From a virus, in the IMG/VR virus record IMGVR_UViG_3300042446_001469, positions 1 through 62,901 of that record: 62,901 nucleotides of DNA; one strand, 5' to 3'. Of the stretch, positions 3,131 to 60,823 are shown piece after piece (the stretch's first letter is position 1; every line of letters starts with the position of its first letter). The notes below the pieces were generated by a model that saw only the letters and a program-made list of their open reading frames with translations, ran no database searches and was not told the DNA's origin. The position numbers and the translations under genes were made by a program.

Positions 3131-3367
3131 ATGAACCAACCTTTTGTCAACGATAAAAATGAAATCGCCAACATTTATCAACAAATGTTGAATGAGGACA
3201 TGACTGCTGGGGGCGTGTATGGGGGGGATGTTGCTGGTCATGCTGGTATTGAAAACACCGATTGGTTTGCTCCAGGAGATGCTAGGAATCCTTATGGGAT
3301 GGGTGTCACCACCAGAAGAGGTAAATTGAAAAATAAAAAACGCAGGAAGAAAATTAAAAAGAATTAA
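3131..3367 (+). CDS. Small late protein with internal-protein-type N-terminus
   Basis: A 78-residue protein not recognised from any family. It starts MNQPFVNDKNEIANIYQQML, which contains the second signature shared by several proteins here (I-Y-x-x-M-L-x-E, residues 14-21). The middle is glycine-rich (AGGVYGGDVAGHAG) and the last 18 residues are almost all Lys/Arg, suggesting nucleic-acid contact. A perfectly spaced late box precedes the ATG. Inference: a virion-internal, DNA-associated protein. Convergent with the methyltransferase gene, 14 bp overlap. Confidence 0.6.
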   Translation: MNQPFVNDKNEIANIYQQMLNEDMTAGGVYGGDVAGHAGIENTDWFAPGDARNPYGMGVTTRRGKLKNKKRRKKIKKN

Positions 3368-4280
3368 TTCTCTTTCTCGCTACTTCACAATATTCGGAAT
3401 TTAAATCAAATCCAATATAATTCATACCTAATTGTTTGGCAACTGCTCCTGTTGTTCCTGAACCCATGAAGAAGTCCAATACGATACCATTTTCAGGGCA
3501 TCCACTCTTTAACATACGTTCTACCAATTCTTCAGGAAATGTGGCTGTGTGAACGGACTTGTTGGATTTGGTATTAATCTTCCACACTGCTCTCATGGAA
3601 CGTCCTCCTCGCTTACGCATTGCGTCCAGAATCCTTCTCTTCGTATCACTTGGGTTCTGTGCCTTCTGAGACTCATAATCCTTTGTAGCCTCTCCTGTAT
3701 ACACTTCATCAGGATTGGAAGAATTGGCAAATGGTTCAATTTGTTGTTTGAAATAATACGATTTGCTTTTCACGAACATGAATACTGATTCAAAATCAAC
3801 CACAAAACGATCTGTGACGCTCTGGGGGAGGGCATTTCCTTTATGCCATACGATATTATTTCTCAAAATCCATCCTCTATTCTGCATCTCGATGGCAAAA
3901 CGGAAAGGAATTAATGCCAATTGTTTTGGTTTTCTCCATCCTCCCAATTTCTCTTTGGGTTTTTCATTAAATTTGAATGATTCTTTTTGAAGCTCATCCT
4001 TATTTTTCCAAACACCTTTACCACTTCCAAGATAGGTATCCCCTAAGTTCACAAAAACAACACCATCATCTCGTAGAACACGATAAACTTCATCGTAGTA
4101 ATCACACAATCCATTGACAAACTCTTCAGGTGTCTCAGCCAATCCAAATTCATTTTCATCATCTGTGTATTGACGAAGGTTGTAATAGGGAGGTGATGTC
4201 AGGCTGCAATGGATCGATTTGTCAGGCAATTCCTTCAATCCAGCCATTGCGTCAATGTTTTTGATGTAATTCACGTTCAT
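3354..4280 (-). CDS. DNA adenine-N6/cytosine-N4 methyltransferase
   Basis: A 308-residue methyltransferase with the beta-class motif order: catalytic SPPYY at residues 29-33, target-recognition region in the middle, and the SAM-binding FMGSGTT near residue 271 followed by GFDLNSEYCEVARKR. Such enzymes methylate exocyclic amino groups of A or C; the SPPY form is compatible with either. No restriction nuclease is adjacent, so it is likely a solitary phage enzyme that protects DNA or changes gene control. It is transcribed from the AT-rich divergent region at 4281-4618, where a TTGACA/TATAAT-like promoter faces it. A second enzyme of the same class is at 18154-18933. Confidence 0.88.
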   Translation of the reverse strand: MNVNYIKNIDAMAGLKELPDKSIHCSLTSPPYYNLRQYTDDENEFGLAETPEEFVNGLCDYYDEVYRVLRDDGVVFVNLGDTYLGSGKGVWKNKDELQKESFKFNEKPKEKLGGWRKPKQLALIPFRFAIEMQNRGWILRNNIVWHKGNALPQSVTDRFVVDFESVFMFVKSKSYYFKQQIEPFANSSNPDEVYTGEATKDYESQKAQNPSDTKRRILDAMRKRGGRSMRAVWKINTKSNKSVHTATFPEELVERMLKSGCPENGIVLDFFMGSGTTGAVAKQLGMNYIGFDLNSEYCEVARKRINSF

Positions 4281-4618
4281 GTTTGGACAGTAGCACAGAT
4301 TTTTGGGATGTCAAACGGATGTTTTTTAATTTTCTGGCGATTAAATTTAACTAAATTTCTTTATTATATTGTACATCTATTCCCACCCCCCTCCCATTAA
4401 TTATACTCGCTATATTCATTTGTCAATAGTCAATTTATTATTATAATTAATTATCTTATTATTAGATATAGATTAGATATTAACTATGATTAAAGATAAC
4501 TAAAGAAAGAAACAAAAGAAAAAAAATTAATTAAAATCAATCTTCTTATCATTATCTATTGATTAAGATTAATGTACAATAAATATAATAAATCAGAATC
4601 AATTATAATTAAATATAA
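4281..4618. other. AT-rich divergent intergenic region
   Basis: 338 bp between two divergent genes without a convincing frame. It holds a pyrimidine run (4371-4396), repeated AT-rich short words and purine-rich stretches (4499-4530). Apart from the minus-strand promoter at 4400-4426 and a loose TAAATA box at 4610-4615, no structure was identified. Confidence 0.6.
4400..4426 (-). promoter_or_regulatory. Sigma70-like promoter for methyltransferase gene
   Basis: On the minus strand, TTGACA (4426-4421) and TATAAT (4405-4400) with a 15-bp spacer, about 120 bp upstream of the ATG at 4280. Spacer is shorter than ideal. Consistent with an early promoter read by host polymerase. Confidence 0.45.
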
Positions 4619-5095
4619 ATGCAAAAATCAGAAAGTCAACCCCAAAGCACATGGAAAAATTTCCCAACCGATACGGAAGGTGTCGTAGGATTTGTTTATC
4701 TCATTCGCAATGATCATCCAGAAGTCGTCAATACCGACAAACCTCAATATTACATTGGGCAGAAGAAGCTACTCAAGAAAGTAAAGCGCAAACCATTGAA
4801 AGGTAAGACGCGCAATAGAATTTCTTATGTGGACAACGATGTTGAAAAGTATTGGGGATCGTCCAAAGAATTGCTTGCTGACATTGAGAAATACGGTATT
4901 GAGCATTTTTCCAGAGAAGTGATAGAAGTCTGTCAATCAAAATTCCATATGTCATTCGCGGAAATGGATTGGCAGGTTAAATGTAAAGTATTATTTGATA
5001 AGAGATTCATGAACGGCATTATCAATGTCCGCTTAGGAGTCGTTCCCAAAAATTATGTTGACATCGAACGTGATCCTGTTACTCTCGAATTGTGA
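4619..5095 (+). CDS. GIY-YIG-like nuclease-fold protein
   Basis: A 158-residue protein whose central part has the GIY-YIG layout: GFVYLIRN near residue 24, YYIGQKK near 43, then a basic stretch, YWGSSKEL near 79, IEKYGIEHFSREVI near 90 and a conserved Glu in MSFAEMDWQVKC near 113. GIY-YIG domains cleave DNA with a catalytic Arg/Glu pair; here the Arg position is not obvious. Related frames occur in T4-like phages as possible mobile or repair nucleases. A homing role is possible, but no NUMOD DNA-binding repeats follow. The stop overlaps the GTG start of the next gene. Confidence 0.55.
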   Translation: MQKSESQPQSTWKNFPTDTEGVVGFVYLIRNDHPEVVNTDKPQYYIGQKKLLKKVKRKPLKGKTRNRISYVDNDVEKYWGSSKELLADIEKYGIEHFSREVIEVCQSKFHMSFAEMDWQVKCKVLFDKRFMNGIINVRLGVVPKNYVDIERDPVTLEL

Positions 5096-5593: not shown

Positions 5594-6058
5594 ATGAGTA
5601 AATTTTTGAAACTTATTGAAGAACATGATCCAGCTACTAAGCGTAGAATGGTTGATTCTTCCAAAGCTAAAAAAAGCAAATTTTTAGAAATTCTGGAACA
5701 ATATGATCCAGCTAATGAACAAAAAAGAGAAGATGCTTTCAAAGCTAAAATGCTTTTACATGAAAAGAAAAGACGATTCAAAAAGAAAAAATACGCTGAA
5801 GAGGATGAATCTATCAATGCTACAACAGGTACGTATGAAGTCGATAAAGAAGTCGAAGGATTGGCAGGTAAAGCTTCTGGTGGTTTGAAAGGTCTTGCAG
5901 GTAAATTGTTTGGCACTTCTGCACAAAAAGCAAAATCAGCAGTGAAAGAAAGACAAAATCTTGCCAATCAAGCAGTTGATGCTTATAGAAAAGGTTCCGT
6001 AAGAATTAAAAAAGGATTACAATCAGTAAAACAAACCGCAACTGGAAGAACTTATTAA
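5594..6058 (+). CDS. Basic late protein with duplicated head-targeting-like N-terminus
   Basis: A 154-residue basic protein. The N-terminus MSKFLKLIEEHDPATKRRM is repeated as SKFLEILEQYDPANEQKR from residue 28, an imperfect tandem copy of about 27 residues. Both copies fit the F-x-x-[LI]-x-E signature shared by other late proteins here. The rest is rich in Lys, Ala and Gly with a glycine-rich hinge near 92-108 and ends in a basic helix. It resembles T4-type internal or core proteins in character, not in sequence. It starts 4 bp after the previous stop and 1 bp before the next gene. Confidence 0.65.
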   Translation: MSKFLKLIEEHDPATKRRMVDSSKAKKSKFLEILEQYDPANEQKREDAFKAKMLLHEKKRRFKKKKYAEEDESINATTGTYEVDKEVEGLAGKASGGLKGLAGKLFGTSAQKAKSAVKERQNLANQAVDAYRKGSVRIKKGLQSVKQTATGRTY

Positions 6059-6956: not shown

Positions 6957-7415
6957 ATGACAAATTTCAAACAATTCTTTGTGGAGAAAAATATATTCGG
7001 TCTAATCGAAGATATTTTCGTTGATGGTATCGGAACTATTTCCTCTAAATTGGATACTGGTAACGGTGCTTACAATGTTTTACATGGAGAAGATATTGAA
7101 TTTGGAGAGGATAAAAAAACAGGCGAGAAGATAGTAAGATTTACAACCATCAATTCCATGAGATTAGAAAAACCTACAGAAGACACAATTATAATTAATA
7201 TCGGAGAAGGAAATACTATTGAAAGACCTGTGTGTCTTTTTGATTGTGTTATAGGAGGTAAAAAATTTAAAAGTATCCCCTTTTCTATTAGTAATCGATC
7301 TACTAATGACCACAAGGTTTTAATCGGAAAAGATTTTATCAAAAATGAATTGGATGCCCTGATCGATGTAGCATTAAACAATGTAGCAGACAAAAAATTA
7401 TCAGTCGATGTATAA
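6957..7415 (+). CDS. Retropepsin-like aspartyl protease domain (RimK-associated type) with head-targeting-like N-terminus
   Basis: A 152-residue protein. After the N-terminal MTNFKQFFVEKNIFG (shared late signature) comes a domain fitting the RimB/'ATP-dependent zinc protease' family, a retropepsin-like fold: KLDTGNGAYN at about 31-40 with the D-T-G active-site triad, a strand VRFTT near 62, IERPVC near 91 and a closing LIGKDFI near 129. One D-T-G per chain means it would act as a dimer. In bacteria these proteins accompany RimK/glutamate ligases. In a phage late operon it could be a maturation protease or an injected enzyme. Overlaps the next gene by 8 bp. Confidence 0.6.
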   Translation: MTNFKQFFVEKNIFGLIEDIFVDGIGTISSKLDTGNGAYNVLHGEDIEFGEDKKTGEKIVRFTTINSMRLEKPTEDTIIINIGEGNTIERPVCLFDCVIGGKKFKSIPFSISNRSTNDHKVLIGKDFIKNELDALIDVALNNVADKKLSVDV

Positions 7416-27929: not shown

Positions 27930-28337
27930 ATGACTACGAAAGATCAGATCGCAATTGCTAAATTGTATATGGAGGGAAATACTTGGGCTGGGTCTATCGC
28001 AGATGCCCATAATAAAAATATAACAAATTGGGGGTCTTTTTCAAGAGCCATACTGAAAAAATTTCCAGATTTTGAAGAAAAAAATGATAGATTCGGTAAC
28101 ACCGAACGAGAAATATTAGAATATTCAACTGGTAATTTATCATTGGAAATAAAATTTGAGAATGGGAAAGTAAGCGTTGAATTATATTTTGAGAATGAGC
28201 AAATGGCTAATAAATATAATCAATATAAATCATTTGATGATGATTTTGATTCAGCATATGAGTTTGTTTTACAAATGGCGAAAAAGATAAAAATATCCAG
28301 CCATGATTTTGATCAAGATATTTATGGGGACGATTGA
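27930..28337 (+). CDS. Hypothetical late protein
   Basis: A 135-residue protein, not recognised. Starts MTTKDQIAIAKLYMEGNTWA, with a helix that ends in LYMEG, then a beta-rich middle (LSLEIKFENGKVSVELYFEN near 69) and a helical end. Lies between the tail terminator and portal genes and has its own late box, so a virion component is likely. Confidence 0.58.
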   Translation: MTTKDQIAIAKLYMEGNTWAGSIADAHNKNITNWGSFSRAILKKFPDFEEKNDRFGNTEREILEYSTGNLSLEIKFENGKVSVELYFENEQMANKYNQYKSFDDDFDSAYEFVLQMAKKIKISSHDFDQDIYGDD

Positions 28338-39053: not shown

Positions 39054-39938
39054 ATGAAGAAAAACAAACAGAATCTTTTCTCTGAAGACGTTCAAAAAAG
39101 TCTCGGTCTTTCCGACGAATCCGTTAGTGCTATCCAAAAAGCATTGGAAGCTAAAGTAGATCTTGCAGTTGAAGCTGCATTGGTTGAACAGGATGAAGTG
39201 TATGCTACTAAATTGGGATCGGTCATGGAATCGCTCGATAAAGATCGCACCATCAAAATGAAAAAATTGATGGAAGCTTTTGATAAAGATAAGACTACCA
39301 AATTAGTTAAAGTTGTTAAGAAATACGAAAGAGAACAGCAAGTTGATCTAATTAGATTTAAAAAACAACTCACTGAATCTGTTAGTGCCTATTTGGAAGA
39401 ATTTTTGAGTGAATCCATTCCTGCTAAAGATATTGAGCAAGCAGTTAAGAATAAAACCGCTATGAACGTGTTGGGAAATCTCCGCAAAGTGTTTGCAATT
39501 GATTCTGCTATCATGAAAGAATCTGTGTCCGATGCAATTCTACAAGGTAAAAATGAATTGGATAAACTTCGTAATGAGAACGCTTCTTTGAAGAGCAATC
39601 TCAAAGTTATCACTGAAGAGAAAAATAACACACAAGTTAAACTCTTCCTCGAAGGTAAAACTTCCAAGTATCCTGAATCTAAAAAGAACTTCATCAAGAA
39701 AGCTCTTGGCGATAAATCCCTTACCTTTATCAAAGAAAATTTCGATTACACCGTGCGTCTCTTTGAAAAACAAGAGAAAAAACAACTTGAAGTAATCAAG
39801 GAAGAAGCTCTCCAAAACCGTAAACATAAGCCAGATTTCGTGAAAAATCAAAAAATTATCACGGAACAAGTAAGTAATGATGTAGAGGAGAATGATCCTT
39901 ATCTGAGTGTCCTTCAAACGATGGAATTCAGAAGATAA
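39054..39938 (+). CDS. 22: Prohead scaffold protein, gp22-like
   Basis: A 294-residue helical, Lys/Glu-rich protein placed between protease and capsid genes as gp22 is in T4. Long coiled-coil segments (about 50-130 and 165-205). Conserved-looking parts: YATKLGSVMESLDKDRTIK near 49 and the end DPYLSVLQTMEFRR. It forms the assembly core and is expected to be degraded by the gp21-like protease. Confidence 0.82.
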   Translation: MKKNKQNLFSEDVQKSLGLSDESVSAIQKALEAKVDLAVEAALVEQDEVYATKLGSVMESLDKDRTIKMKKLMEAFDKDKTTKLVKVVKKYEREQQVDLIRFKKQLTESVSAYLEEFLSESIPAKDIEQAVKNKTAMNVLGNLRKVFAIDSAIMKESVSDAILQGKNELDKLRNENASLKSNLKVITEEKNNTQVKLFLEGKTSKYPESKKNFIKKALGDKSLTFIKENFDYTVRLFEKQEKKQLEVIKEEALQNRKHKPDFVKNQKIITEQVSNDVEENDPYLSVLQTMEFRR

Positions 39939-40000: not shown

Positions 40001-41452
40001 ATGAATATCCCACAAACTGATTTAAATGGCTCAAAAATGCAACGCGCAGTCGCTAAATGGCGTAAAGTGCTGGACTATAGCTCGAACTCGATTCCTGCTA
40101 TCCAGAACGAACACGTCTATAAGACAACCGCTATGCTGCTTGAGAACCAAGAACAGTGGTGCTTTCAAGAATCAAACAACGCTGGTAGTAACGGCGTTTT
40201 TGGCGCAACGTCTTCCATTGGCAATGGTATCGCTAACAGCGACTCCTATGCTGCTGGTGATGCTCGTTTGCCAAAGATTCTGATTCCTATGATTAGACGT
40301 ACTTTCCCAGAATTGATTTCTAATGAAATCGTCGGTGTCCAGCCAATGGGCGGTCCTGTCGGACTCGCCTTCGCTCTCCGTTATGCTTATCAAGGCGAAA
40401 CCCTTGGTGCAGACGGTGTTGATGGCAAAGCATTCACCTCTACTTCCCGTGGCAACCAGCCTTGGGATCAGTATGCAGGTGGTACAGGTCTTCCGAACGA
40501 CGAAATGGGCTATCAATTACTGGACACACGTTTCACTGGCACATCTGCTGGTTTCCTCTCTGGTCATGCTGAGTGGACATTCGCAGATCAAGACCGTGGT
40601 ATTGCTGAACTATTGAGTAATTACGAATTGACAGGTAAAATCCCTCAAATCGAACTCAAGTTTGACAAAACTGCTGTTGAAGCTGGGACACGTAGACTTG
40701 CAACTCGTTGGAGTGTTGAGTTGGAACAAGACATCAAAAACATGAACGGCATCGATATCGATGGAGAACTTACGAATGCTATGTCGTATGAGATCCAAGC
40801 TGAAATCGACCGTGAAGTTGTGATGCGTATGATCCAAACAGCCTTTAATGCTGGTGCTGGCGCAGGTTTCTCCATCTGGAGTCCTGTTAGTGCGGATGGT
40901 CGTTGGACTGCTGAAAGAAATATTACCTTCTATCAACGCCTTATTATCGAAAGTGGTCGTATGGCTGCTCGTAACCGTAGAGGTGCCGCTAACTTTGTTA
41001 TCGCCACTCCTCGCGTTTGCAGCATCCTCGAAATGCTTCCTGACTTTAAGGTTTACGAAATCAACGGAACCGTTTCGACGGCTGGTGTTGGTATCGCAAA
41101 AGTTGGTACTGTTGGTAGCCGCTGGACGGTTTATCGTGATACTCGGACTGAAGTTCAGAACACTTCACTCTATAGCCCTAACTACTACTCTGGTCAAACC
41201 AGCGGTGTAGAATATGCGCTATTGGGTTACAAAGGTTCTGAATACTATGACACAGGTATTATTTACTGCCCATACATCCCGATTATGGTGCAACGCACAA
41301 TTGGACCGAATGATTTCGCTCCTCGCGTTGGACTCATGACCCGTTATGGTATTGTAAACAATATCTTCGGTGCTAATCTTTATTATCACCTGATCATTGT
41401 CAAAGGTCTTGGTACTGCGTTTACACCTGGTTCTGTTAGCACTTACCTGTAA
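40001..41452 (+). CDS. 23: Major capsid protein, gp23-like
   Basis: A 483-residue HK97-fold capsid protein of the gp23 type: LPKILIPMIRRTFPELISNE near residue 89, IVGVQPMGGPVGLAFALRY near 109, and near the C-terminus the conserved segment with PYIPIMVQRTIGPNDFAPRV. The N-terminal segment AMLLENQEQWCFQES near 44-58 holds L-L-E and F-Q-E, plausible sites for prohead-protease trimming. Codon and base use are visibly less AT-rich than the neighbours, as expected for a highly expressed gene. A strong terminator follows. Confidence 0.93.
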   Translation: MNIPQTDLNGSKMQRAVAKWRKVLDYSSNSIPAIQNEHVYKTTAMLLENQEQWCFQESNNAGSNGVFGATSSIGNGIANSDSYAAGDARLPKILIPMIRRTFPELISNEIVGVQPMGGPVGLAFALRYAYQGETLGADGVDGKAFTSTSRGNQPWDQYAGGTGLPNDEMGYQLLDTRFTGTSAGFLSGHAEWTFADQDRGIAELLSNYELTGKIPQIELKFDKTAVEAGTRRLATRWSVELEQDIKNMNGIDIDGELTNAMSYEIQAEIDREVVMRMIQTAFNAGAGAGFSIWSPVSADGRWTAERNITFYQRLIIESGRMAARNRRGAANFVIATPRVCSILEMLPDFKVYEINGTVSTAGVGIAKVGTVGSRWTVYRDTRTEVQNTSLYSPNYYSGQTSGVEYALLGYKGSEYYDTGIIYCPYIPIMVQRTIGPNDFAPRVGLMTRYGIVNNIFGANLYYHLIIVKGLGTAFTPGSVSTYL

Positions 41453-41540: not shown

Positions 41541-42065
41541 ATGCAATTATTCAATCAATTTTTCCAAATCCACGAAAGTCTTGATAATCCATACCCTTGG
41601 AAGAATACGTTCAAAACCGAAGAAGTCGTAGATGATTGGGATGATAGTGGAGATGAATATCCCAAAGATGTTCTTACACCAACTCAAATAATACATTTCA
41701 AAACAGATGAAGGTGTTCCATACATTTGGTATGCAAAGCAAAATAGATACAACGATAAATATTGGGAAATTGCATTCGGGATTGTTGAAAAAGATAAAGG
41801 AGATGGTGGCTATGAAACAAATATTGAAAAAACGGGAACAGGCAATGCATTTCGTGTATTCGCTACAGTAATTGAAATTACAAATTATTTCGTGGAATGG
41901 GATGGAGATAATTATGAAGTTCAAAATTTAACCTTTTCATCTAAAGGTAATAACCGAACATCTCTTTATAAAAAATATCTAGTTCCCCGAATTGAAAATT
42001 TTGAAATATCTGATGAACAGAAAAATGGTGATGAAACAGAAATCCATCTTCAACGTAATTTCTAA
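41541..42065 (+). CDS. Late protein with head-targeting-like N-terminus
   Basis: A 174-residue protein starting MQLFNQFFQIHESLD, which fits the shared signature, with I-H-E as an I-x-E cleavage candidate. The rest is mixed alpha/beta: YIWYAKQNRYNDKYWEIAFG near 61 and GTGNAFRVFATVIEITNYF near 98. No named family. Gene position directly after the capsid gene. Confidence 0.62.
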   Translation: MQLFNQFFQIHESLDNPYPWKNTFKTEEVVDDWDDSGDEYPKDVLTPTQIIHFKTDEGVPYIWYAKQNRYNDKYWEIAFGIVEKDKGDGGYETNIEKTGTGNAFRVFATVIEITNYFVEWDGDNYEVQNLTFSSKGNNRTSLYKKYLVPRIENFEISDEQKNGDETEIHLQRNF

Positions 42066-48425: not shown

Positions 48426-48743
48426 ATGGATAAATTTTTACAACAAATCTATACTGATTTGATTTTGGAATATCAAAGTGGTTTCAACCCACCCCAAAGA
48501 GTGCCAAAGCAAGAAGTTCCTCAAGAAGCGGGAACTAAATTGTCTTACAATAAACAAATAATTGGAATAGCACCACCGATGGTGACTTCCCACGTTTATG
48601 GTGAGCAAGAAGAAGAATTGGGAGGAATTTTAAAAATTATCCAAGATGTTGAAGATGAATATATCGGAGATTCCCCAATTAATAATGCTGTCAGATTAGC
48701 ACTTGGAACATTGAGAGAAAAATTGGATAAATCGAATAAGTAA
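48426..48743 (+). CDS. Small late protein with both N-terminal signatures
   Basis: A 105-residue protein. MDKFLQQIYTDLILEYQSGF combines the M-x-x-F start with the I-Y-x-x-[LM] signature and an I-L-E site (I-x-E). A Pro-rich linker follows and then a short acidic helical part. Not recognised; likely virion-internal by its N-terminus. Confidence 0.6.
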   Translation: MDKFLQQIYTDLILEYQSGFNPPQRVPKQEVPQEAGTKLSYNKQIIGIAPPMVTSHVYGEQEEELGGILKIIQDVEDEYIGDSPINNAVRLALGTLREKLDKSNK

Positions 48744-52278: not shown

Positions 52279-52893
52279 ATGCAGTCATTCTATAAATTTT
52301 TTTGGGAAGCATTCTCAGACATTGGTAAATTATCACCTGAACAATTAAAAATCAGTAGAAAACTAACACCTGAAGATTCTGGAAAATTTAAAAAAGTTGA
52401 TTGGCGATCATTTTATAAAATCATCAATGCTTACATGGAATCAGATACTAAACGTGCTGACCCTGAACACAAAGAACATGAATGGTTTAAAGATATTAAA
52501 AATAACATCACCATTTACAAACCAGAAGAATACGCAGAGATGGAATGTTTTATCGGACCAAACAATACCAGCGGATATTGCATCAAAAAGGGTGATGAAT
52601 TGGTTTCGGTTTTTTCTGGCATACAATCTTCGGGGGATGCGGCAGTAAAAAGTGCTATTAAAAATGGTGTTAGACGTTTAGATTGTTTTGCGGAACAAGA
52701 TGGTGATGGTAATATCATACCAAAAAAATTATTCAAACTCTACAGTCGAAATGGTTTTGTTATTGACAAAGATAAAAACGATGATACAATGCCTTATCCA
52801 GTGTTCAATGGTATTTCCTATGGTGTTGACGACGATGGCAACATCGACAGAAATTCCAAAACAGTGGTTGTTTACATGAAATTAGCACGATGA
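52279..52893 (+). CDS. GNAT-like domain protein with head-targeting-like N-terminus
   Basis: A 204-residue protein. MQSFYKFFWEAFSDIGKL fits the shared signature. The second half resembles GNAT-like domains found in phage and polyvalent proteins: SGYCIKKGDELVSVFSGIQS near 98, then GDAAVKSAIKNGVRRLDCFA near 119 and LFKLYSRNGFVID near 153. That pattern (self G-x-L-V-S-V-F, L-D-C-F, L-Y-x-x-x-G-F) is strong, so an acetyltransferase-type activity is plausible. No Q/R-x-x-G-x-G/A loop is obvious. Confidence 0.6.
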   Translation: MQSFYKFFWEAFSDIGKLSPEQLKISRKLTPEDSGKFKKVDWRSFYKIINAYMESDTKRADPEHKEHEWFKDIKNNITIYKPEEYAEMECFIGPNNTSGYCIKKGDELVSVFSGIQSSGDAAVKSAIKNGVRRLDCFAEQDGDGNIIPKKLFKLYSRNGFVIDKDKNDDTMPYPVFNGISYGVDDDGNIDRNSKTVVVYMKLAR

Positions 52894-53174
52894 CAGTAAT
52901 TTATCCAAGAGAACATATGATTAACGCTCCGAATAGTGATGGAGTAGAAGTTATTTTTACAGGCGATCCAATTCCCCTTCCATCAGGAATGTATGATACA
53001 GTATTGATGATTGTTGAACATGAGCCTAAAATGGTTGATTTGAATTACGAATCGTCATATAAGTCCTGTATGCATACTGTAAAGACTATGATTGATTGTA
53101 ATTTTCAATCTAGAAATTTGGAATTATTAATAAAAAAATTTAAAACAATAGAAGATATTTGGAATTATGAGTGA
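52890..53174 (+). CDS. Hypothetical protein
   Basis: 94 residues, not recognised; DPIPLPSGMYDTVLMIVEHE near 30. Its 3' end is partly repeated after the next gene (53096-53119 and 54075-54098). ATGA overlap upstream, 8-bp overlap downstream. Confidence 0.55.
   Translation: MTVIYPREHMINAPNSDGVEVIFTGDPIPLPSGMYDTVLMIVEHEPKMVDLNYESSYKSCMHTVKTMIDCNFQSRNLELLIKKFKTIEDIWNYE
53096..53119 (+). repeat. 24-bp direct repeat, copy 1
   Basis: Identical to 54075-54098; inside the 3' end of the 52890-53174 gene. The similarity continues downstream with a small deletion. Confidence 0.9.
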
Positions 53175-54069
53175 TGAATTAAACATAAGAGAATTATATA
53201 ATAAAATTCTGGAAAAACGTGCAGCAGCAAGAGGAATTGTTTTATCGGAAAACGTAAAAATACCAGTCACTAGAAGTAGTCCTGATAAACTCGAATTTGA
53301 TGGTATTGTTAAAAATTTTGACGACAACACCAGACCATTTTGTTTTATTGGGGAAAATTCAGAATTGATTGGAACAATAAACCACAATGAAGGTACACAT
53401 CCGTATATATTTTCTGCTTTTACTAAGTTAGCAGCAGCTTTAAAAATTATACCTTTTCCAGCAATGATGAGTTATCTGCAATCAATGTATTCAGATACTA
53501 CAATTAAAGATGTTAAAAAGATTCTTAAAGACGATGATGTGTCTTTCTTGGGTAAATTTGACATGTCAAACTTGGAATTTTTTGCAAAGAAACAGAAATC
53601 AGGAATGACAACAGACACTAGACGGAATACCAGAGCGGGTAGAATATGGTTTTCGGTCGCATCTAAAACATTGAAAAAAAATGTCAATGTAATTGTTTTT
53701 TGGTGTAGAGAACGTCAATTGAAACCAGATGATTTAAAAAGTTTGAATAAATATTTTAAATTGGGTGATTTTTTCTGGTCTGCAACTGATTCAAGTCAGT
53801 TCAATTATTTTGGTGACAATTATAGAGAGAGCGAATCTGGTGAGACTAAAGAACTCAAAAGTAAAATCTATCCCGAATTGTCACACGATGAGATTGTTGA
53901 TATTCTAATGAGAGCGCATACTGGATTTAATATGACACCATATGAAAAGAAAATTGTATGGGAATTTAGAGGATTTGATCCATCGGACTTGAAACAGGTT
54001 ACGGGAGGGTATCCTTCTGCTGCTGAATATGGATATCGTAAAAAATTAAGTGAGAGTGTCGATGATTAG
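53167..54069 (+). CDS. Late protein with IY-type N-terminal signature
   Basis: A 300-residue protein, not recognised. MSDELNIRELYNKILEKRAA contains the L-Y-x-x-I-L-E signature. A middle region has RIWFSVASKTLKKNVNVIVF near 158 and the C-terminus DILMRAHTGFNMTPYEKKIV near 238. It is flanked by a direct repeat, as if inserted behind the preceding gene. Confidence 0.58.
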   Translation: MSDELNIRELYNKILEKRAAARGIVLSENVKIPVTRSSPDKLEFDGIVKNFDDNTRPFCFIGENSELIGTINHNEGTHPYIFSAFTKLAAALKIIPFPAMMSYLQSMYSDTTIKDVKKILKDDDVSFLGKFDMSNLEFFAKKQKSGMTTDTRRNTRAGRIWFSVASKTLKKNVNVIVFWCRERQLKPDDLKSLNKYFKLGDFFWSATDSSQFNYFGDNYRESESGETKELKSKIYPELSHDEIVDILMRAHTGFNMTPYEKKIVWEFRGFDPSDLKQVTGGYPSAAEYGYRKKLSESVDD

Positions 54070-54098: not shown

Positions 54099-54124
54099 AA
54101 AGCAATAGAAGAAATTTGAATAAT

Positions 54125-54823
54125 ATGAAAAATAAAGACAATAATGAAATTGGAGATATTTACACTGACTTACTACAAGAAAGTGGATTAAATAGAGTTC
54201 GTAATAAAATTCAGAAACATGCTGCTGGAATTGTTACAGCATTTAGGAATGATAAATCATACAAAGAAAATATGCTCAACAATAAAAAAATATTAGCATA
54301 TCTCCAATCGAAAAGATATTCCATTACCACAGTATTGGGAACATTTATCGAAGATTTTATCGATGATGATAAGCGTGAGGAAATTCTAGCTAGAAAAGGT
54401 GGTGGTGATGCTTATAATCCAGTTGAAAAACATGTTAATGAGCGTTCGTTTTTCGTAGTCAATGACAAAGTAGAAGGCGATGATGATGGGGAACTGGCGA
54501 AAGATTTATATAAAATGGGTAAAGCTTTTAATCAAGATTCAGTCTTAATCATTCCAGCGGGTGGAATAGGTGTTTATTTATGGGGAACTTCCGATGGAGA
54601 AGACGCATATCCTGGTTTAGATGTTAAACAAACCGTTGGTGAAGGAAAATTCGGTAAACATTCAGGTCCGTTCCTATCCAAAGTTAAAGGACGTGATTTT
54701 GCATTTGAAAAAGAACGTGATTTTGTATTTGAAGAAGTTGGACAACCTAAAACCATTAATGGCAAAAGAAGTCGATATCTATTACTGAAAGAGATTCAAA
54801 AAATTGTAGATAACTTAAAATGA
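54125..54823 (+). CDS. Late protein with IY-type signature, DUF3293-like pattern
   Basis: A 232-residue protein. ATG 54125 chosen over TTG 54116. The start MKNKDNNEIGDIYTDLLQES carries I-Y-x-x-L-L-x-E. Later parts (NERSFFVVNDKV near 105, LAKDLYKMGKAFNQDSVLII near 122, then GVYLWGTSDG) resemble DUF3293-type phage proteins in layout. Function unknown. ATGA overlap with the next gene. Confidence 0.55.
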   Translation: MKNKDNNEIGDIYTDLLQESGLNRVRNKIQKHAAGIVTAFRNDKSYKENMLNNKKILAYLQSKRYSITTVLGTFIEDFIDDDKREEILARKGGGDAYNPVEKHVNERSFFVVNDKVEGDDDGELAKDLYKMGKAFNQDSVLIIPAGGIGVYLWGTSDGEDAYPGLDVKQTVGEGKFGKHSGPFLSKVKGRDFAFEKERDFVFEEVGQPKTINGKRSRYLLLKEIQKIVDNLK

Positions 54824-55584
54824 ATAACTTTAAAACTTTTTTTGAAAGATTCGCAAATGGGGAATTACCTCCTGTAAATAAAAGAAGAAAAATTCTTTTA
54901 GAAGCTCAATATGTTTACCCATCCTCTGGTGATAAAGCTATCATGGATTTGTATGCGCTATATGCTCTATGGTGGGAATTGGGGGGTGGCAAATCAGCAT
55001 ACAATTACGAAGATACCAATGTTCGTAATTATAAAGTAAGAGAAAAAGTTGATCGATATTTTGAAGAAGCATTGGTAGTTATAGCAAATACTCTTCTACA
55101 GGAATCTAAAGAAGCGATTGCTGATGAAGCAGAAAATATTTTCGATGAATATTTAATACCTTCAAAAGAAGTAGTTACATGGTTTAAAGAGAATAACCTC
55201 CTCCCAAAATTAGCAAAAGCACACAACGAAGGAAAAGGTGGTATATGGTTTGATGTTTTTGATTATAACGATACTACTAGTATTATGTCTGCTCCTTTTT
55301 GGGAAAAAAATGCTAATTTATATGGTGGTAAAAAATGGGCTGAAATCACTCAAGCAGTGAAAGAATTAGACAATGCCATCCGCAGAGAAAAAGTATCCGC
55401 TCTAATGGGTTCATTTGACAAGTTGATGGACTTGGAACACAACACGGGAAATCTTTATTCTAAACTTAATAAAATGAAAGTGTCAAAAGATACTTTAGAT
55501 TTGAGAGCAGGATTTGGATCACCAAAAGATTTCCAACCATATGTCAGTGATCAAGTTGCAAAATTGATTAATTTAATTAGATAA
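54820..55584 (+). CDS. Late protein with head-targeting-like N-terminus
   Basis: A 254-residue helical protein starting MNNFKTFFERFANGELPPVN, matching the shared signature. No known domain. Notable stretches: LYALYALWWELGGGKSAYNY near 46 and GIWFDVFDYNDTTSIMSAPF near 146. Confidence 0.58.
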   Translation: MNNFKTFFERFANGELPPVNKRRKILLEAQYVYPSSGDKAIMDLYALYALWWELGGGKSAYNYEDTNVRNYKVREKVDRYFEEALVVIANTLLQESKEAIADEAENIFDEYLIPSKEVVTWFKENNLLPKLAKAHNEGKGGIWFDVFDYNDTTSIMSAPFWEKNANLYGGKKWAEITQAVKELDNAIRREKVSALMGSFDKLMDLEHNTGNLYSKLNKMKVSKDTLDLRAGFGSPKDFQPYVSDQVAKLINLIR

Positions 55585-55595: not shown

Positions 55596-55820
55596 ATGAA
55601 AAAATTCCAAGATTTCTTTAATGACTACTTCAAGAAAGTTGAAAAAAAAGATCTTCCTAAACCAGAGGTTTCCAAAGGAGAAGAAGTAGAACAAGAACAT
55701 ATTGCTCCTTCCAAGAGAAAAACAAAGTTAGGAAAGAAGTTGGCGAAAACGATTGCTAAACAGCATGTGGAAGAAGATCCAAAATATTACTCCAAGATGG
55801 AGAAACAGCACAAAGATTAA
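55596..55820 (+). CDS. Small basic late protein with head-targeting-like N-terminus
   Basis: 74 residues: MKKFQDFFNDYFKKVEKKDL (shared signature) then a Glu-rich link and a Lys-rich end (SKRKTKLGKKLAKTIAKQH). Charge layout resembles T4 internal proteins. Family unknown. Convergent with the HhH-type gene 9 bp away. Confidence 0.6.
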   Translation: MKKFQDFFNDYFKKVEKKDLPKPEVSKGEEVEQEHIAPSKRKTKLGKKLAKTIAKQHVEEDPKYYSKMEKQHKD

Positions 55821-55829: not shown

Positions 55830-57248
55830 TTAATGATTAAATGATTCGGTGTAAGGATCTACCACAACTTTTCTTGCGGTTATATCTACTGGTTTTCTGA
55901 TCATGACATCATCAGTCATAGGTGATTTATTTGTAGATGAATGCATATTGTCTTTTATTTTATTAATACCTCTTCTGAGAAAAGAAAGAGTTTCTGTTCT
56001 ACTTTTATCAGTCATCCCCGCCAAATATTTCAAAGTGTTGGTATCTAATTTTTCCGTGATCGCCATCATATCAGATGGATTGATCTTTGTCAATGCTTGA
56101 ATTGTATCTTTTCTGGATAATGTTTTATTTTTGATTGAATCTACAATCACTTGTCGTTGTTGTTTGGTCATCATACTTGGTATGTATCCTCCAACGCTTT
56201 CGATGATCTGCTCAACAGCTTTATCCCATTTCTGATCAAAGTCTTCTACGTATTCCTTCATTAACATTTCATATTGTTGATCGAATGATTCTTTTTTGAT
56301 GAAGGGTTCTATATCTTTAAAAATGGTGTAGTGATCTTTACTAACATTTCTTCCATCCATTTTAGAACCTTTCAATCTCTTATTGGTATAATCTTCCAAT
56401 CTATCTTTGGTTCTTTTATTTGGTGCGTATGCTGTTTGATATTTGATATTATCTCCTTTTTTAGTTGCTATTACTTTATGCTCGTCTCTCGCTTTTTCTT
56501 CTTTAGAAAACTTGCCAGCATATAAAAATTTATGCTCAACAATTTTACACCAATCGTCCCACAAAATTTGTGACATTGGACTACTATATTCAATATATGA
56601 TTCTAAATTTTTCCTACCACCTTTGGTCAATTTACCATGCTTATCTCTGGCGGGACTAGCCATATTTAATCCAGTGACATCATATGATTTGACATTAATA
56701 CTATCGAAACATCCTAAATCACCACTTATCAGTTGCACTACAAAAGCAGCTTTAGCTTTTGCTAAACCTTTTATGGTTGTAACGTAGTCGAAAAGTTCAA
56801 AAACATCGTCTATTCTTTTGACAACATTTTCATAAATGGTTTGTCTGTTATCATAAACATCATAAAATTGTGATAATCTTTGAGTCGATAATCCAGTTTC
56901 TTTATGCTTACCAGTCATTTGATGACCCAGAAACGATGGTGGTTCCACATTTCTATTAACCACTAATCGATTCCCCTTTCTCACAACTGCTTTCGTATAA
57001 AACCACTCAATAAATTTTGGGAAACCATGTAACACTTCTGCCCAAGGTGTTTGCATAGTATAAAATACAAAGGCGAATACCATCGCTAAATTATCTGGAT
57101 TTGATAATGCGAATGCTTTTATAAGAGGATTGTCATCTTTGAAACCACTGTCTTTGTCATCTCTCTTTATACCTAAAGGAATAGTGACTTTTGGTTGCCA
57201 AATGACACTCTCCATCAATTCCTTATACAATTTATTAAAGCTACGCAT
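55830..57248 (-). CDS. Large late protein with HhH-like motif and head-targeting-like N-terminus
   Basis: A 472-residue protein starting MRSFNKLYKELMESVIWQPK. Around residue 157 it has KGLAKAKAAFVVQLISGDLG followed by CFDSIN, a pattern like the helix-hairpin-helix and Cys/Asp region of HhH-GPD DNA glycosylases. The C-terminal half is basic and helical. A DNA-binding, perhaps lesion-recognising, virion protein is possible. Similar frames are seen in T4-like phages as hypotheticals. Confidence 0.55.
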   Translation of the reverse strand: MRSFNKLYKELMESVIWQPKVTIPLGIKRDDKDSGFKDDNPLIKAFALSNPDNLAMVFAFVFYTMQTPWAEVLHGFPKFIEWFYTKAVVRKGNRLVVNRNVEPPSFLGHQMTGKHKETGLSTQRLSQFYDVYDNRQTIYENVVKRIDDVFELFDYVTTIKGLAKAKAAFVVQLISGDLGCFDSINVKSYDVTGLNMASPARDKHGKLTKGGRKNLESYIEYSSPMSQILWDDWCKIVEHKFLYAGKFSKEEKARDEHKVIATKKGDNIKYQTAYAPNKRTKDRLEDYTNKRLKGSKMDGRNVSKDHYTIFKDIEPFIKKESFDQQYEMLMKEYVEDFDQKWDKAVEQIIESVGGYIPSMMTKQQRQVIVDSIKNKTLSRKDTIQALTKINPSDMMAITEKLDTNTLKYLAGMTDKSRTETLSFLRRGINKIKDNMHSSTNKSPMTDDVMIRKPVDITARKVVVDPYTESFNH

Positions 57249-57256: not shown

Positions 57257-57730
57257 TTAATATAATTCGTCCTGAATAGTAGTTAAATACTCCCCATCGA
57301 TCTCTTCAACCATCTTAGATTCAACCACACTGTCAGGATTGATGATGATAATGGAAAGATTCTCATTTCTGATATCACCTTCTCCTGTATTTTTGTAGAA
57401 AGCAATATCATAATCACCCAAATCTTTTACATAATCATATCCATGATCTGTTCCATCATCAGGTAGTAACTTGGGATACACTTTATCAATTCTAATAGTT
57501 AATTCATAAAGATAATACTTGTCGAATCTCCCTTCGTCATTGATCATATAATCAGCACGAATCAGAGCTTGTTGCTTAGTTCCCGCATGAGAACCTGAAG
57601 TATAGTCGTTCTTATTGGGACGAGCCGAAGAACGATACACTTTAAGATAGTGAGTATTCGAGATATCTCGTAGCTTACTATTCGGAGATAGCTCTTGGAT
57701 ATCATAGAAAGATTCTAGAAAAGTTCTCAT
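57257..57730 (-). CDS. ADP-ribosyltransferase-like late protein with head-targeting-like N-terminus
   Basis: About 157 residues. I place the start at ATG 57730 because a minus-strand TAAATA box (57736-57741) lies exactly 5 bp upstream; the longer frame to 57802 would cross it. The N-terminus MRTFLESFYDIQELS fits the shared signature. The body resembles polyvalent ART-type domains: LKVYRSSARPNKNDYTSGSH near 29, GTKQQALIRADYM near 50, a YLYELTIRIDKVYPKLL strand, YDIAFYKNTGEGD near 113 and LSIIIINPDSV near 130. The conserved active-site Glu is uncertain. Confidence 0.55.
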   Translation of the reverse strand: MRTFLESFYDIQELSPNSKLRDISNTHYLKVYRSSARPNKNDYTSGSHAGTKQQALIRADYMINDEGRFDKYYLYELTIRIDKVYPKLLPDDGTDHGYDYVKDLGDYDIAFYKNTGEGDIRNENLSIIIINPDSVVESKMVEEIDGEYLTTIQDELY

Positions 57731-57735: not shown

Positions 57736-57741
57736 TATTTA
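57736..57741 (-). promoter_or_regulatory. Late promoter box, 5 bp before ATG 57730
   Basis: TAAATA on the minus strand, TTTTT, ATG; decides the start of the ART-like gene. Confidence 0.72.
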
Positions 57742-57817
57742 ATCTATTGACAGGGGAAGGAAATATTTCATACCATGGTGGAACATATGGAGAAATATCC
57801 ATAATGTGATTAATATT

Positions 57818-58462
57818 TTAAGCTCTTAGCTTGTGACCAATGAAATCGAACACTTCCATTTTATCATCGTCTATTTCAGTATTAATCATTTCCTGTTTAT
57901 TAACTCTTAAACCAACCATCTTATCAAATCCATAAGTTCTCCATTTCACATCAGTTTCAAATTTACCACCTGAAGATGGATACATATATTGTTTGGCTTC
58001 TTCCTTATCAATTTCTTTTAAGTTTCCCTGATTATCTCGAATGACATAAAACGTTACGTTATTCTTAATTAGATTAGAATTAAACATGATTAAAGATAAT
58101 CCTCTCTTAGAAATCCCCACACTACGGGAGAGTCTTTCTCCTACAGTATTACTTGACTGTGCTTCAAAATCCCCTTCATCACCCCTTTTAGTTAATTGTC
58201 TATTAACTTCTTTTTGGTATTCCCCCAATTCTCCAATCGTTTGAGTGATTTTATATAATTGTTGGTGAGGGAATTGTTTTTCATATTTTCTTGGTGTGGT
58301 AACTGCGGTAAAGCTAAAAGGGATTGTGGTGTTTGGTTTCTCTTTATCTGCCTTAATTACAAAGTCCATCATACCTTTAATATCCATAGGTATTGATCCT
58401 TCTGCAAAACCATATGCCATTTCCATGTAAATATTCTCCAATATGATACGATCTTTGTTCAT
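57818..58462 (-). CDS. Late protein with IY-type N-terminal signature
   Basis: A 214-residue protein with start at ATG 58462, set by a late box 5 bp upstream. MNKDRIILENIYMEMAYGFA shows the I-Y-x-x-M-A signature. The rest is not recognised: FSFTAVTTPRKYEKQF near 49 and NNVTFYVIRDNQGNLKEIDK near 134. Confidence 0.58.
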   Translation of the reverse strand: MNKDRIILENIYMEMAYGFAEGSIPMDIKGMMDFVIKADKEKPNTTIPFSFTAVTTPRKYEKQFPHQQLYKITQTIGELGEYQKEVNRQLTKRGDEGDFEAQSSNTVGERLSRSVGISKRGLSLIMFNSNLIKNNVTFYVIRDNQGNLKEIDKEEAKQYMYPSSGGKFETDVKWRTYGFDKMVGLRVNKQEMINTEIDDDKMEVFDFIGHKLRA

Positions 58463-58561: not shown

Positions 58562-59416
58562 ATGAACCAAGACGAACTTTCCCTACAACAAATCTACCAA
58601 GAAATGGCTTTGACCAATCTACAAAAGATTGGAAAGTGGGAAGACAAAAAGAATCGTCATGGTTATGATAAAGCATCAATTGGTATCCTATCTTCTCCCG
58701 CAGGACTGAAGAAATTGGAAAATACTTTCAATCGCATTGGTAATTGGGATTTTAATTTATATTTCGTAAAAAAAGCGGGAGCATGGAAAGAAGCAGAAAA
58801 AGGTCTAGTGACTCCCGAATTTGTAAAAGAACATCTGGGTCTGGAAGTAGGTAAAGATTTCCCCCAACCAGAGAACGACCAAATCACAGTATTCTTCACC
58901 AATAATGCAGCAGCAGAAAAAGTCCCTCTGACTCCATGGACAATTGCCCATAGAATTGGACATAGCTTCGCAGCAACATTTAGGAGAAATAATGATTTAA
59001 ATTATATTAATAGAAACATATCAAACATCCTAAAAAATCTTTTTGAACAAGCTTACAATATAAACACAAGTAATTCCAGAGACTTACGCTATTCATCTGA
59101 TTATTATGTAAGAGACTTCTTCCAAAAGATCGGTAAGTTCCGTAGCGCAAGAATGGGTAAGCTCGTAAGACCCGCAGAATTCTATCACGAAGCATTTGCC
59201 TATTGGTTACTACATGATGGAGAATTGACTTTCAATGACCCGCCAAAAATTCTACAAGACAGTAACAAACAAGCATGGGGTAAATCAACAGCACGTAATT
59301 ACAGATTACAAGATGAAGATGAAGCTTGGGAATATATTAATCAATTCAAATGGGCTTTAGATGAAATGTTCAATGTCATGATCGGTAAGCACATGGGAAC
59401 AATGTCCATTATGTGA
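58562..59416 (+). CDS. HRxGH zincin-like late protein
   Basis: A 284-residue protein. MNQDELSLQQIYQEMALTNL has the I-Y-x-x-M-A signature. Near residue 126, LTPWTIAHRIGHSFAATFR is laid out like a zincin helix H-E-x-x-H, but Glu is replaced by Arg (HRIGH). A later EFYHEAFAYWLLHDGE near 214 could supply a third ligand. It may be an inactive or altered metallopeptidase. The next gene encodes a canonical HExxH protein. Confidence 0.6.
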   Translation: MNQDELSLQQIYQEMALTNLQKIGKWEDKKNRHGYDKASIGILSSPAGLKKLENTFNRIGNWDFNLYFVKKAGAWKEAEKGLVTPEFVKEHLGLEVGKDFPQPENDQITVFFTNNAAAEKVPLTPWTIAHRIGHSFAATFRRNNDLNYINRNISNILKNLFEQAYNINTSNSRDLRYSSDYYVRDFFQKIGKFRSARMGKLVRPAEFYHEAFAYWLLHDGELTFNDPPKILQDSNKQAWGKSTARNYRLQDEDEAWEYINQFKWALDEMFNVMIGKHMGTMSIM

Positions 59417-59417
59417 T

Positions 59418-59423
59418 TAAATA
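59418..59423 (+). promoter_or_regulatory. Late promoter box, 5 bp before ATG 59429
   Basis: TAAATA, ATAGG, ATG. Confidence 0.75.
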
Positions 59424-59428
59424 ATAGG

Positions 59429-60823
59429 ATGATATCTTTCCACGAATACTTTTTAATAAGAGAAGCAAAATTCTCCCAATCAAAAAAGGTAATCCCCATA
59501 ACAAAATTACCTATGTTCTCTGTTTATCTTTTCAAAGATGATGTAGATAAAGTAGAGAGCATAAATGAATTGAAAGAAAAAATAACGAACGCTTGCACGG
59601 AAGCAAGAAAGATAATCACCAAGATGGGTTTCCCTTCCATGCATTCCAACATATTGATCAAGGATTTGTCAGAGGAAGTGAATTGGGTATCGGGGGGAGG
59701 AGTTGGGGGTTATGCTCATCGCAAAGGAAAATACATGACAGTATCCTTAAATCAAATCAATGATCCAAATTATCTAATCAAAGTGATAGTCCATGAATGG
59801 GCGCACCTATGGATGTTCAACAATTCCGAAGGATTTAAAAGAGCTGTCAGCGAATACTACAATACTCTATTAAACCAATACAAAACAAATTTCTCCACCG
59901 CTCAAAAACAGAAGGAAAAGGAACCATTCAAAAATATTTATAAGTATACTAATTTTGAAAAAACAGAAGAATTATTGGGCAGTGGTTATAACAGTTTAAT
60001 TTGGAACGAAGTTGTTAAAGATATGATGTATACAGTCAGAAATATCTATCAAAGTTATGTTTCCAACAAGTATGATGAAGACGGTTCCCCATGGAAAATA
60101 AATGACCAAGAATTTTTTAAAGTCTGGAGAGACAACTTCAAAAGTAAAACCAGAAAATTAATATTAAAAATAATTAATGACATGCAAAACAAATCACAAT
60201 TTTGGCATGTTGATATGGGAATTTATAATAAACAACTTAATTATCTAAGCAATGCCCTGACAAAGTTATTTTATGACAATCTAATAAAGAATATAAAACG
60301 TTCAGTGGAAGCGGATGAGAGTGATTGGAATTGGGCGAAGGAAGATGGAGAAGATTGGGTATCAGAATTTGAATCCATTTCTGATTATCTATTAAGTGAA
60401 ACAAAACATAACGAGAATTTTATATTCGCTAATGATGATTCTTATACGGAAGTTAGTAATAAATTTGATGAATTAGATACTCATAGATTGGGTATTGTTG
60501 TCCTTATAATCAATTTCGTATTCAATATCTTTGAAATTACTATAAATCAAAAAAACTTCCCCCAATCAGGAGATAACCTTGCAGGAAAGGAACAATCTCC
60601 ATTTAGGGAACAGATGAAAGATCTGGTAAAGTGGGTAGATTCTTATGGAATGTCAAATAATGATGAGTTATGGGCAACGGGAGTGGAGGAATTTCTCAAG
60701 CTCCCTTCAAACCATAAAAAAGCTATATTAAAATTAATGGGAACCCAAGGAGAACGACCTCTACCCAATCGGAGATATAAAAAATATATCAAAACGATTG
60801 ATACCGATGGTCTTACACTTTAA
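59429..60823 (+). CDS. HExxH metallopeptidase-like late protein with head-targeting-like N-terminus
   Basis: A 464-residue protein: MISFHEYFLIREAKFSQSKK (shared signature, I-R-E as cleavage candidate), then a zincin motif IVHEWAHLWMFN near residue 121-132 (H-E-x-x-H), preceded by a glycine-rich strand GGGVGGYAHRKG. A possible third ligand is in WATGVEEFLKL near 428. The middle 250 residues are helical and unrecognised. Likely an active zinc protease carried in the virion; targets unknown. Confidence 0.65.
   Translation: MISFHEYFLIREAKFSQSKKVIPITKLPMFSVYLFKDDVDKVESINELKEKITNACTEARKIITKMGFPSMHSNILIKDLSEEVNWVSGGGVGGYAHRKGKYMTVSLNQINDPNYLIKVIVHEWAHLWMFNNSEGFKRAVSEYYNTLLNQYKTNFSTAQKQKEKEPFKNIYKYTNFEKTEELLGSGYNSLIWNEVVKDMMYTVRNIYQSYVSNKYDEDGSPWKINDQEFFKVWRDNFKSKTRKLILKIINDMQNKSQFWHVDMGIYNKQLNYLSNALTKLFYDNLIKNIKRSVEADESDWNWAKEDGEDWVSEFESISDYLLSETKHNENFIFANDDSYTEVSNKFDELDTHRLGIVVLIINFVFNIFEITINQKNFPQSGDNLAGKEQSPFREQMKDLVKWVDSYGMSNNDELWATGVEEFLKLPSNHKKAILKLMGTQGERPLPNRRYKKYIKTIDTDGLTL

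Follow-up and report, generated by a model that had tools for sequence, protein, structure and literature searches.

Unrelated late proteins of a T4-like phage share N-termini that resemble T4 capsid-targeting propeptides

The 62,901-base window analysed here is the whole of the IMG/VR virus record IMGVR_UViG_3300042446_001469 and belongs to a phage that, to judge from its gene content, is T4-like. It codes for a series of proteins with unrelated bodies that begin with the same short motif. On the basis of their sequences, these shared N-termini are very probably capsid-targeting propeptides of the T4 kind (hereafter tags), carried by proteins that would be packaged in the head and injected into the host. 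We directly observed the shared motif, late promoters, one exchange between its two styles, copies of it inside larger proteins and a protease gene. The T4-like core includes a portal (PF07230, E-value 3.7e-94), a gp21-like protease, a gp23-like capsid protein and a gp55-like late sigma factor. Positions 1-61067 represent the same phage as a longer record of 154 kb (G001), with 99.97-100% identity over the aligned blocks.

The initial annotation listed 17 such proteins, named here by window coordinate, and sorted them into type 1 and type 2 signatures. The listed N-termini read as it gave them, and 12 of the 17 match its strict patterns, seven for type 1 (5594, 6957, 41541, 52279, 54820, 55596 and 55830) and five for type 2 (3131, 53167, 54116, 57818 and 58562). 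Another three come close: 57257 has Ser at residue 7, where L181 and L182 carry Phe; 59429 has Tyr at residue 7; and 48426 matches each type loosely. The last two, 6060 and 7408, do start more loosely, as had been stated, but neither type fits them and their membership is weak. Fixed patterns for type 1 (pattern A) and type 2 (pattern B), taken together, capture 13 of the 17 proteins. The separation into two signatures does not seem to hold: type 1 (MxxFxx[FY][FY]xE) and type 2 (IYxx[ILM]LxE, its Tyr at residue 9-16) align as one core, [YF]xx[FYILM][FYILM]xE, and both look like a single class of tag. An [LIFY]xE tripeptide ends at residues 8-28 in all of the window proteins except 55596 (16/17). 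With a broad regular expression, about 20 late-promoter genes of this one phage have tag-like N-termini.

The late promoter is T4-like (TAAATAATA), and its hexamer TAAATA lies exactly 11 bases 5' of the ATG in 22 of the 86 window genes, including 3131, 5594, 37677, 39054, 52279 and 58562. When all 2659 window ATGs are considered, 24 have TAAATA at that spacing, and no other spacing between 6 and 30 is represented more than eight times. The peak at 11 bases is common to nine relatives, with 40-52 such genes per genome in the first six genomes analysed and 26-46 in each of four further relatives. T4 late promoters consist of an 8-bp TATA box that precedes the transcription start by about one helical turn (PMC2988020). 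The late mRNAs of the present phage therefore probably begin at the AUG itself, i.e. they would be leaderless. The gp55-like late sigma factor (window 795-1235), present in all six genomes searched, is consistent with the TAAATA promoters. Ten of the 17 listed proteins have a late promoter at 11-12 bases, and ATGs exactly 11 bases from TAAATA move two minus-strand starts, to 57730 (MRTFLESFYD) and 58462 (MNKDRIILENIYMEM).

Enrichment was determined in a set of six genomes, namely G001 (the window's own phage) and its relatives G002, G005, G006, G007 and G012; the window record itself was excluded as a duplicate of G001. Open reading frames (ORFs) came from a greedy caller, and starts were shifted to promoter-linked ATGs (13-18 per genome) without any motif information. 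Proteins of at least 60 residues were clustered by their bodies, ignoring the first 25 residues, and one representative was kept per cluster. Four genomes were analysed without their final 2.5 kb (G002), 11.2 kb (G005), 1.0 kb (G006) or 1.6 kb (G013). Pattern A or B occurs in 37 of 132 late body clusters vs 17 of 614 non-late ones (Fisher 6e-18), which bears out the proposal that unrelated late proteins share the tag, whereas internal windows from those late proteins match in 1.2% of cases and shuffled N-termini in 2.1%. In a pattern-free motif search at width 9, with equal starts for all sets, late N-termini scored 229.5-235.4 in three runs, and the controls did not exceed 172.6 (30 shuffles) or 191.1 (30 non-late samples). 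An earlier run had been uneven, with 30 starts on the late side and 12 starts for the controls; the equal-start repeat at width 9 kept the gap. The T4-type core with its Glu was found in 18/132 late vs 9/614 non-late clusters, and in late representatives 19 of the 33 core matches lie within the first 20 residues. Since the regular expressions for A, B and the core had been written after seeing the first six genomes, they were frozen and applied to G008, G011, G013 and G014, using clusters without a body homologue in those six. On these new bodies, type A matched 10/42 late vs 8/248 non-late clusters (p 2.7e-5), and [LIF]xE at residues 6-25 was present in 22/42 vs 57/248 (p 1.6e-4).

The conserved positions of the type 1 tags, 4, 7, 8 and 10, are those mapped in T4 IPIII. 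Tests with amber suppressors have attributed targeting of that internal protein mainly to residues 4 and 7, and its processing to residues 8 and 10 (PMC9026906). Type 1 N-termini of the window and its relatives have aromatic or hydrophobic residues at 4 and 7, a hydrophobic residue at 8 and Glu10 or a nearby xE. T4 ipII and ipIII read MKTYQEFIAEA, and ipI reads MKTFKEF...ITEA; among 161 ORFs of T4 stretches, our fixed patterns gave six matches, of which two are ipII and ipIII. The T4 internal proteins are described as a highly diverse set sharing only a conserved capsid-targeting sequence (review among PMC3012670 and PMC9026906), and this sequence has already been suggested as an evolutionary means for loading diverse proteins (PMC9026906).

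The presence of a gp21-like prohead protease at 37677 was confirmed (PF03420, E-value 1.4e-28; S77 family). The enzyme shares GELxHP, GxSxR and an Asp with the gp21 proteins of T4 and a cyanophage, features that we take to be catalytic in gp21 proteases. A propeptide site in the major capsid protein (MCP), WC[FYI][QE]E followed by [SA], is predicted in nine of ten genomes; G013 was missed by the search pattern. In T4, cleavage takes place at L/I-x-E, and the protease that processes the internal proteins also cuts the core proteins (PMC9026906). The same cleavage rule had been put forward for the tags. Adjoining xE sites are seen, but the predicted site seems broader here, [LIFY]xE, with a P3 position somewhat less restricted than in T4.

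Two families illustrate how the tags may be exchanged. Four members of the 52279 family have type 1 tags, MQSFYKFFWE/AFSD, MRPFYDFYLE/KFSD, MKTFYQFFWE/AFSD and MKSFYQFFWE/KFTD (the slash marks the predicted boundary). In the G006 member a type 2 tag, MKLTQKDQSEIANLYSEILVE, takes the place of type 1, and the body resumes with AFSD right after the glutamate; the boundary thus reads FWE then A for type 1 vs LVE then A for type 2. Similarly, in the 41541 family MQLFNQFFQIHE (ending in IHE) and, in G012, MKFDQLFTIFE (IFE) each precede the same SLDNPYPW. Exchange exactly at the xE boundary would fit a removable tag.

Tags are also found in the middle of polypeptide chains. They precede a YVEDF segment in window protein 55830 (SFDQQYEMLMKE), in an 815-residue protein of G005 (SFNYQYKMLIKE) and in G015 (SFDQEYEMLMRE). 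In G002 (MIRFHKLYRQLMRE), L086 and L168, stand-alone proteins begin with the corresponding tag and YVEDF; the stand-alone N-termini of G012 and G006 differ in their last residues (MIPFKKFFFESVNNNLDDF and MKSFKNFYTEQYIEDF). The stand-alone protein is of the PolyA_pol/HD type in G002 and G012 (PF01743, E-values 1.5e-25 and 5.1e-24), and window protein 55830 has no Pfam match. The G013 member of the 58562 family is joined to a homologue of 55596 (36%, 74 columns, pairwise E-value 3.6e-10); the junction reads GFKESYLSE then MALSN, compared with QIYQE then MALTN elsewhere. These arrangements suggest that the head protease could split fused polyproteins.

As for the bodies, 40 proteins with tags or tag-like N-termini, chosen by eye from the window's phage and its relatives, were scanned with Pfam. 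The scan identified PolyA_pol/HD proteins (two), i.e. tRNA-nucleotidyltransferase-like enzymes, a NUDIX protein, a DEAD/SNF2-type helicase, a PF18762 kinase (7.7e-36) and, weakly, a Zn-peptidase; 34 of the 40 had no usable Pfam match, and most of the tagged proteins scanned had no family in PHROG or Pfam. Clear tags are found on the PF01743+HD, NUDIX and PF05618 proteins (5/5 members of the 6957 family), on the protein with an ADP-ribosyltransferase (ART)-like predicted fold and on a second kinase family (MISFSEFYLIKE then A). This family matches phrog_15752 (protein kinase inhibiting host transcription; 1.1e-7), which is presumably T7 gp0.7. The helicase and the PF18762 kinase are only loosely tagged and escape the fixed patterns. 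Several of the recognised proteins are late. Enzymes that would act on the host and that combine a late promoter with a tag would be most easily understood as cargo destined for the following infection.

The predicted structure of the protein coded by 57257-57730 resembles ADP-ribosyltransferases, albeit short of firm cut-offs. The model has a predicted local distance difference test score (pLDDT) of 83, and of 59 over the first ten residues. Chains with an ART fold make up nearly all of the 50 VIA-align 2 rows shown, with 5i82 at Z 7.9 (root-mean-square deviation 3.6, 127 residues aligned), where Z < 8 can reflect a common arrangement, ParT 6d0i at Z 7.4 (3.4, 118) and NatT 8qnl at Z 7.1 (3.7, 129). 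The best Foldseek E-value was 0.0065, with none < 1e-3. A scan as 57257-57802 against Pfam and PHROG, to E 0.05, matched no family, and the best hit of a PDB sequence search (E 0.39) was not an ART. By eye, YHxT/LHT-type starts reminiscent of ARTs were also noticed in five tagged or late proteins (G002 68113, G012 52767, G011 79167 and 123976, and G006 21809); the three that were scanned gave no significant ART match. A fold assignment for 58562 was discarded: its model has a pLDDT of 70.6, with residues 1-55 below 50, and the searches reached a Foldseek E-value of 0.77 at best and VIA-align Z <= 3.9, some of the weak rows being metallopeptidases.

We favour capsid targeting with gp21-type cleavage because the IPIII positions, the S77 protease, the exchange at xE and the tags within fusions all agree. 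Other explanations were weighed against it. That the motif merely reflects chance or the composition of A+T-rich genes seems virtually negligible: seven of 16 window matches of our first broad regular expression were indeed absent from the initial list, but the shuffled and internal controls give 1-2% as against 28%, and type A replicates on new bodies. Very improbable, too, is a signal at the level of DNA or mRNA, with the first codons of leaderless mRNAs shaped by translation initiation. The strict 11-base spacing of TAAATA would be in keeping with such a signal. However, tagged genes without a promoter exist (6957, 53167, 54116, 54820 and 55830), the late portal, head-tail adaptor and fibre genes do not have the motif, its codons vary (Phe is TTT 14 times and TTC 13 times) and the type 2 Tyr is as far in as residue 9-16. 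The internal tags of the fused proteins, well away from a start codon, further disfavour a translation-start explanation. Since hydrophobic helices serve generically for docking, and tail protein 26824 has a similar N-terminus, the motif might dock proteins to the tail, the baseplate or a membrane without any relation to the head; we regard this as quite improbable given the match to the T4 targeting positions, the adjoining xE sites with an exchange at one of them, and the similar pattern at the MCP site.

An explanation that is unlikely for the set as a whole, but has a firmer footing, is that the tagged proteins are mainly parts of the prohead core or scaffold, like T4 gp67 and gp68, that are degraded in maturation rather than injected. 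Several families are present in all six genomes (5594, and G001 68537, 28600 and 81103), and the protease that cuts the T4 core proteins is the same (PMC9026906). Against this, 22 of 47 tagged late families are confined to a single genome, vs 26 of 85 other late families (tagged families being found in fewer genomes, one-sided p 0.006; the split uses the broader regular expression, hence 47 tagged late clusters and not 37), and the few recognised bodies are enzymes. Some of the tagged proteins may nevertheless be prohead-core parts rather than injected effectors, and for some conserved members (5594, and G001 68537 and 28600) a core role is likely. Protein 5594, possibly a core component, repeats a tag-like sequence at residues 28-36 (SKFLEILEQ).

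Several observations weigh against capsid targeting as the general explanation. The full core [YF]xx[FYILM][FYILM]xE is present in 7/17 window proteins. Glu at residue 10 is found in 9/38 type-A-like clusters and 4/14 late ones, and the cut must therefore often lie elsewhere than at residue 10. On new bodies, the narrow type B expression was not replicated (1/42 vs 2/248, not significant), nor was the core with Glu significant (2/42 vs 2/248, p 0.10). The idea that tags diverge faster than bodies was abandoned (0.56 for residues 2-10 vs 0.59 for bodies; p 0.22 vs other late families, with the same broader split). The seven off-list matches of the first broad expression are 795, 11362, 12973, 18154, 19175, 26824 and 49966; that of 26824, a tail sheath stabilizer (phrog_227), is a chance match on a non-cargo protein. 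Thus, the N-terminal pattern alone is insufficient as a cargo marker. Moreover, the fixed patterns miss ipI and Alt among the T4 ORFs and gave no match among 51 ORFs of a cyanophage stretch; the pattern is informative, yet neither complete nor specific. Lastly, two large contigs of gut metagenome-assembled genomes (MAGs) with distant gp23 relatives (L236 and L237; 45-49%) have TAAATA boxes and no clear tags by eye.

Under the capsid-targeting explanation, core binding, cleavage, packaging and injection would proceed by analogy with T4. The short amphipathic helix [YF]xx[FYILM][FYILM] would attach to the scaffold core while the prohead grows and bring its protein into the head, where the gp21-like protease would cut behind the adjoining [LIFY]xE and free the cargo among the DNA, with which it would exit at the next infection. 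Unrelated enzymes and ORFans would have acquired the tag, tags would be exchangeable between proteins, and fused cargoes would retain a junction tag at which the same protease could separate them. More tentatively, and with about as much room for doubt as for belief, or slightly more, we envisage a modular tag-and-cut delivery in which interchangeable prohead tags are placed on horizontally acquired enzymes, junction tags serve both to target and to cut, and effector polyproteins enter the head intact and are cut apart there, ahead of injection.

The features of the window are collected in Table 1. The scaffold candidate at 39054-39938 has no PHROG match. In the protein of gene 3131-3367, LNE then D aligns with WCFQE then S(NNAG) of the MCP. 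We also noted that the body of this protein resembles the MCP N-arm and ends in a basic, lysine-rich tail; it is possibly a capsid-arm mimic. The product of 59429-60823 has an HEWAH motif and looks metallopeptidase-like by eye (Pfam below cut-off), and its paralogue G001 80391 has a different tag.

Table 1. Predicted tags and related features of the 62,901-base window
Position	Strand	Feature	Evidence
795..1235	-	Late sigma factor, gp55-like	Match of G001:94005-94331 (E 4.7e-12), mapped to window
3131..3196	+	Type 2 tag ..NEIANIYQQMLNE then DMTAGG, 78-residue protein (gene 3131-3367)	Late promoter at -11
5594..6058	+	Type 1 tag protein MSKFLKLIEE	Late-gene and family data; family in 6/6 genomes
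6957..7415	+	Type 1 tag MTNFKQFFVE then K on PF05618 domain	Pfam E 9.5e-9, residues 14-146
27930..28337	+	Probable type 2 member absent from the initial list (MTTKDQIAIAKLYMEG)	Late promoter
37677..38342	+	gp21-like prohead protease (S77), own N-terminus MALKLKLIAE then N	PF03420 E 1.4e-28; phrog_207 4.6e-53
39054..39938	+	Scaffold (gp22-like) candidate	Position between gp21 and gp23
40001..41452	+	Major capsid protein gp23, predicted propeptide site WCFQE then S	Sequence match, motif
41541..41576	+	Type 1 tag MQLFNQFFQIHE then S (gene 41541-42065)	Late promoter data, family alignment
48426..48470	+	Tag MDKFLQQIYTDLILE then Y (gene 48426-48743)	Alignment, pattern check
52279..52308	+	Type 1 tag MQSFYKFFWE then A (gene 52279-52893)	phrog_2563 body from residue 38
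53167..54069	+	Type 2 tag protein (NIRELYNKILE)	Without own late promoter
54116..54181	+	Type 2 tag ..EIGDIYTDLLQE then S (gene 54116-54823, start uncertain)	phrog_30877 match, residues 2-202
54820..55584	+	Type 1 tag protein MNNFKTFFER	3/3 family members tagged
55596..55820	+	Type 1 tag protein MKKFQDFFND	G013 homologue fused to 58562 family
55830..57248	-	Type 1 tag protein MRSFNKLYKE, N-domain of two-domain protein	Sequence
56253..56288	-	Internal tag SFDQQYEMLMKE then YVEDF, residues 321-332, domain junction	Aligns with stand-alone N-termini in relatives
57257..57730	-	Type 1-like tag MRTFLESFYDIQE then L, 157-residue protein, ART-like predicted fold	Promoter-linked start, structure model
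57818..58462	-	Type 2 tag MNKDRIILENIYME then M, start moved from 58543	Late promoter
58562..58603	+	Type 2 tag MNQDELSLQQIYQE then M (gene 58562-59416)	Late promoter data, family comparison
59429..59464	+	Type 1 tag MISFHEYFLIRE then A (gene 59429-60823)	Pfam below cut-off; late promoter data, alignment

Elsewhere in the window, positions 9011-20553 contain a run of genes whose N-termini look, by eye, glycosyltransferase-, sugar-epimerase- and methyltransferase-like. On the minus strand at 61115-62801 there are small ORFs, three of which start with MPTTN and have near-identical leaders (AACTAGCGTAAGCTGGTGAC and variants) that could be repeated promoter or operator units. A close isolate was not found: our phage collection, which may miss near records, gave no DNA match for window positions 30000-54000. 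The top-ranked matches of the MCP, at ~33% identity, are from cyanophages, and one contig scan of genomes found only two distant MCPs (45-49%), on gut MAG contigs labelled Lachnospiraceae and Paludibacteraceae. We would guess at a host in the Bacteroidota.

The arrangement recalls T4 IPI, IPII and IPIII, which combine an N-terminal tag of 10-19 residues, key positions 4/7 and 8/10, unrelated bodies and an S77 protease. Unlike them, the present phage has about 20 tag-like late genes, two interchangeable tag styles, enzymes as putative cargo and tags inside fusions. The product of 57257-57730, tagged, late and with its ART-like predicted fold, parallels Alt, the injected ADP-ribosyltransferase of T4, but it has 157 residues and no significant match to a known ART sequence, and its N-terminus differs from the MELITELFDE of Alt. 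The prohead-protease cargo of phiKZ and SPN3US and the Dar proteins of P1 are similar in that many head proteins reportedly have cleaved propeptides; these phages differ in capsid lineage and cleavage motif. Polyvalent proteins are proposed injected enzymes, including a kinase of the PF18762 type, mainly from phages of Bacteroidetes and Verrucomicrobia-Chlamydia (PMC5512222). In contrast with them, the cargo here would consist mostly of separately tagged single proteins, and the fusions have a junction tag; multi-domain fusions occur in G001, G005, G015 and G013, with a known domain only in the PolyA_pol/HD part. Earlier proposals from gene context include ARTs, Nudix proteins and polyvalent kinases packaged in the head (PMC9503650, PMC5512222). 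Judged by title and start of abstract, none of the open PMC papers listed by our searches on capsid targeting describes this clade, interchangeable tags or internal tags. The T4 internal proteins and Alt were known already, and what appears to be new is a larger, modular cargo with apparently cleavable polyproteins.

If this explanation is correct, the injected proteins of an uncultured phage clade would be readable from sequence, by combining the tag with the late promoter. This would provide dozens of candidate host-takeover or anti-defence proteins, mostly without a known family, ahead of virion proteomics. About a dozen codons would suffice for a phage to load a new enzyme into its head, and the natural variation of the tags would make the T4 targeting-sequence code testable.

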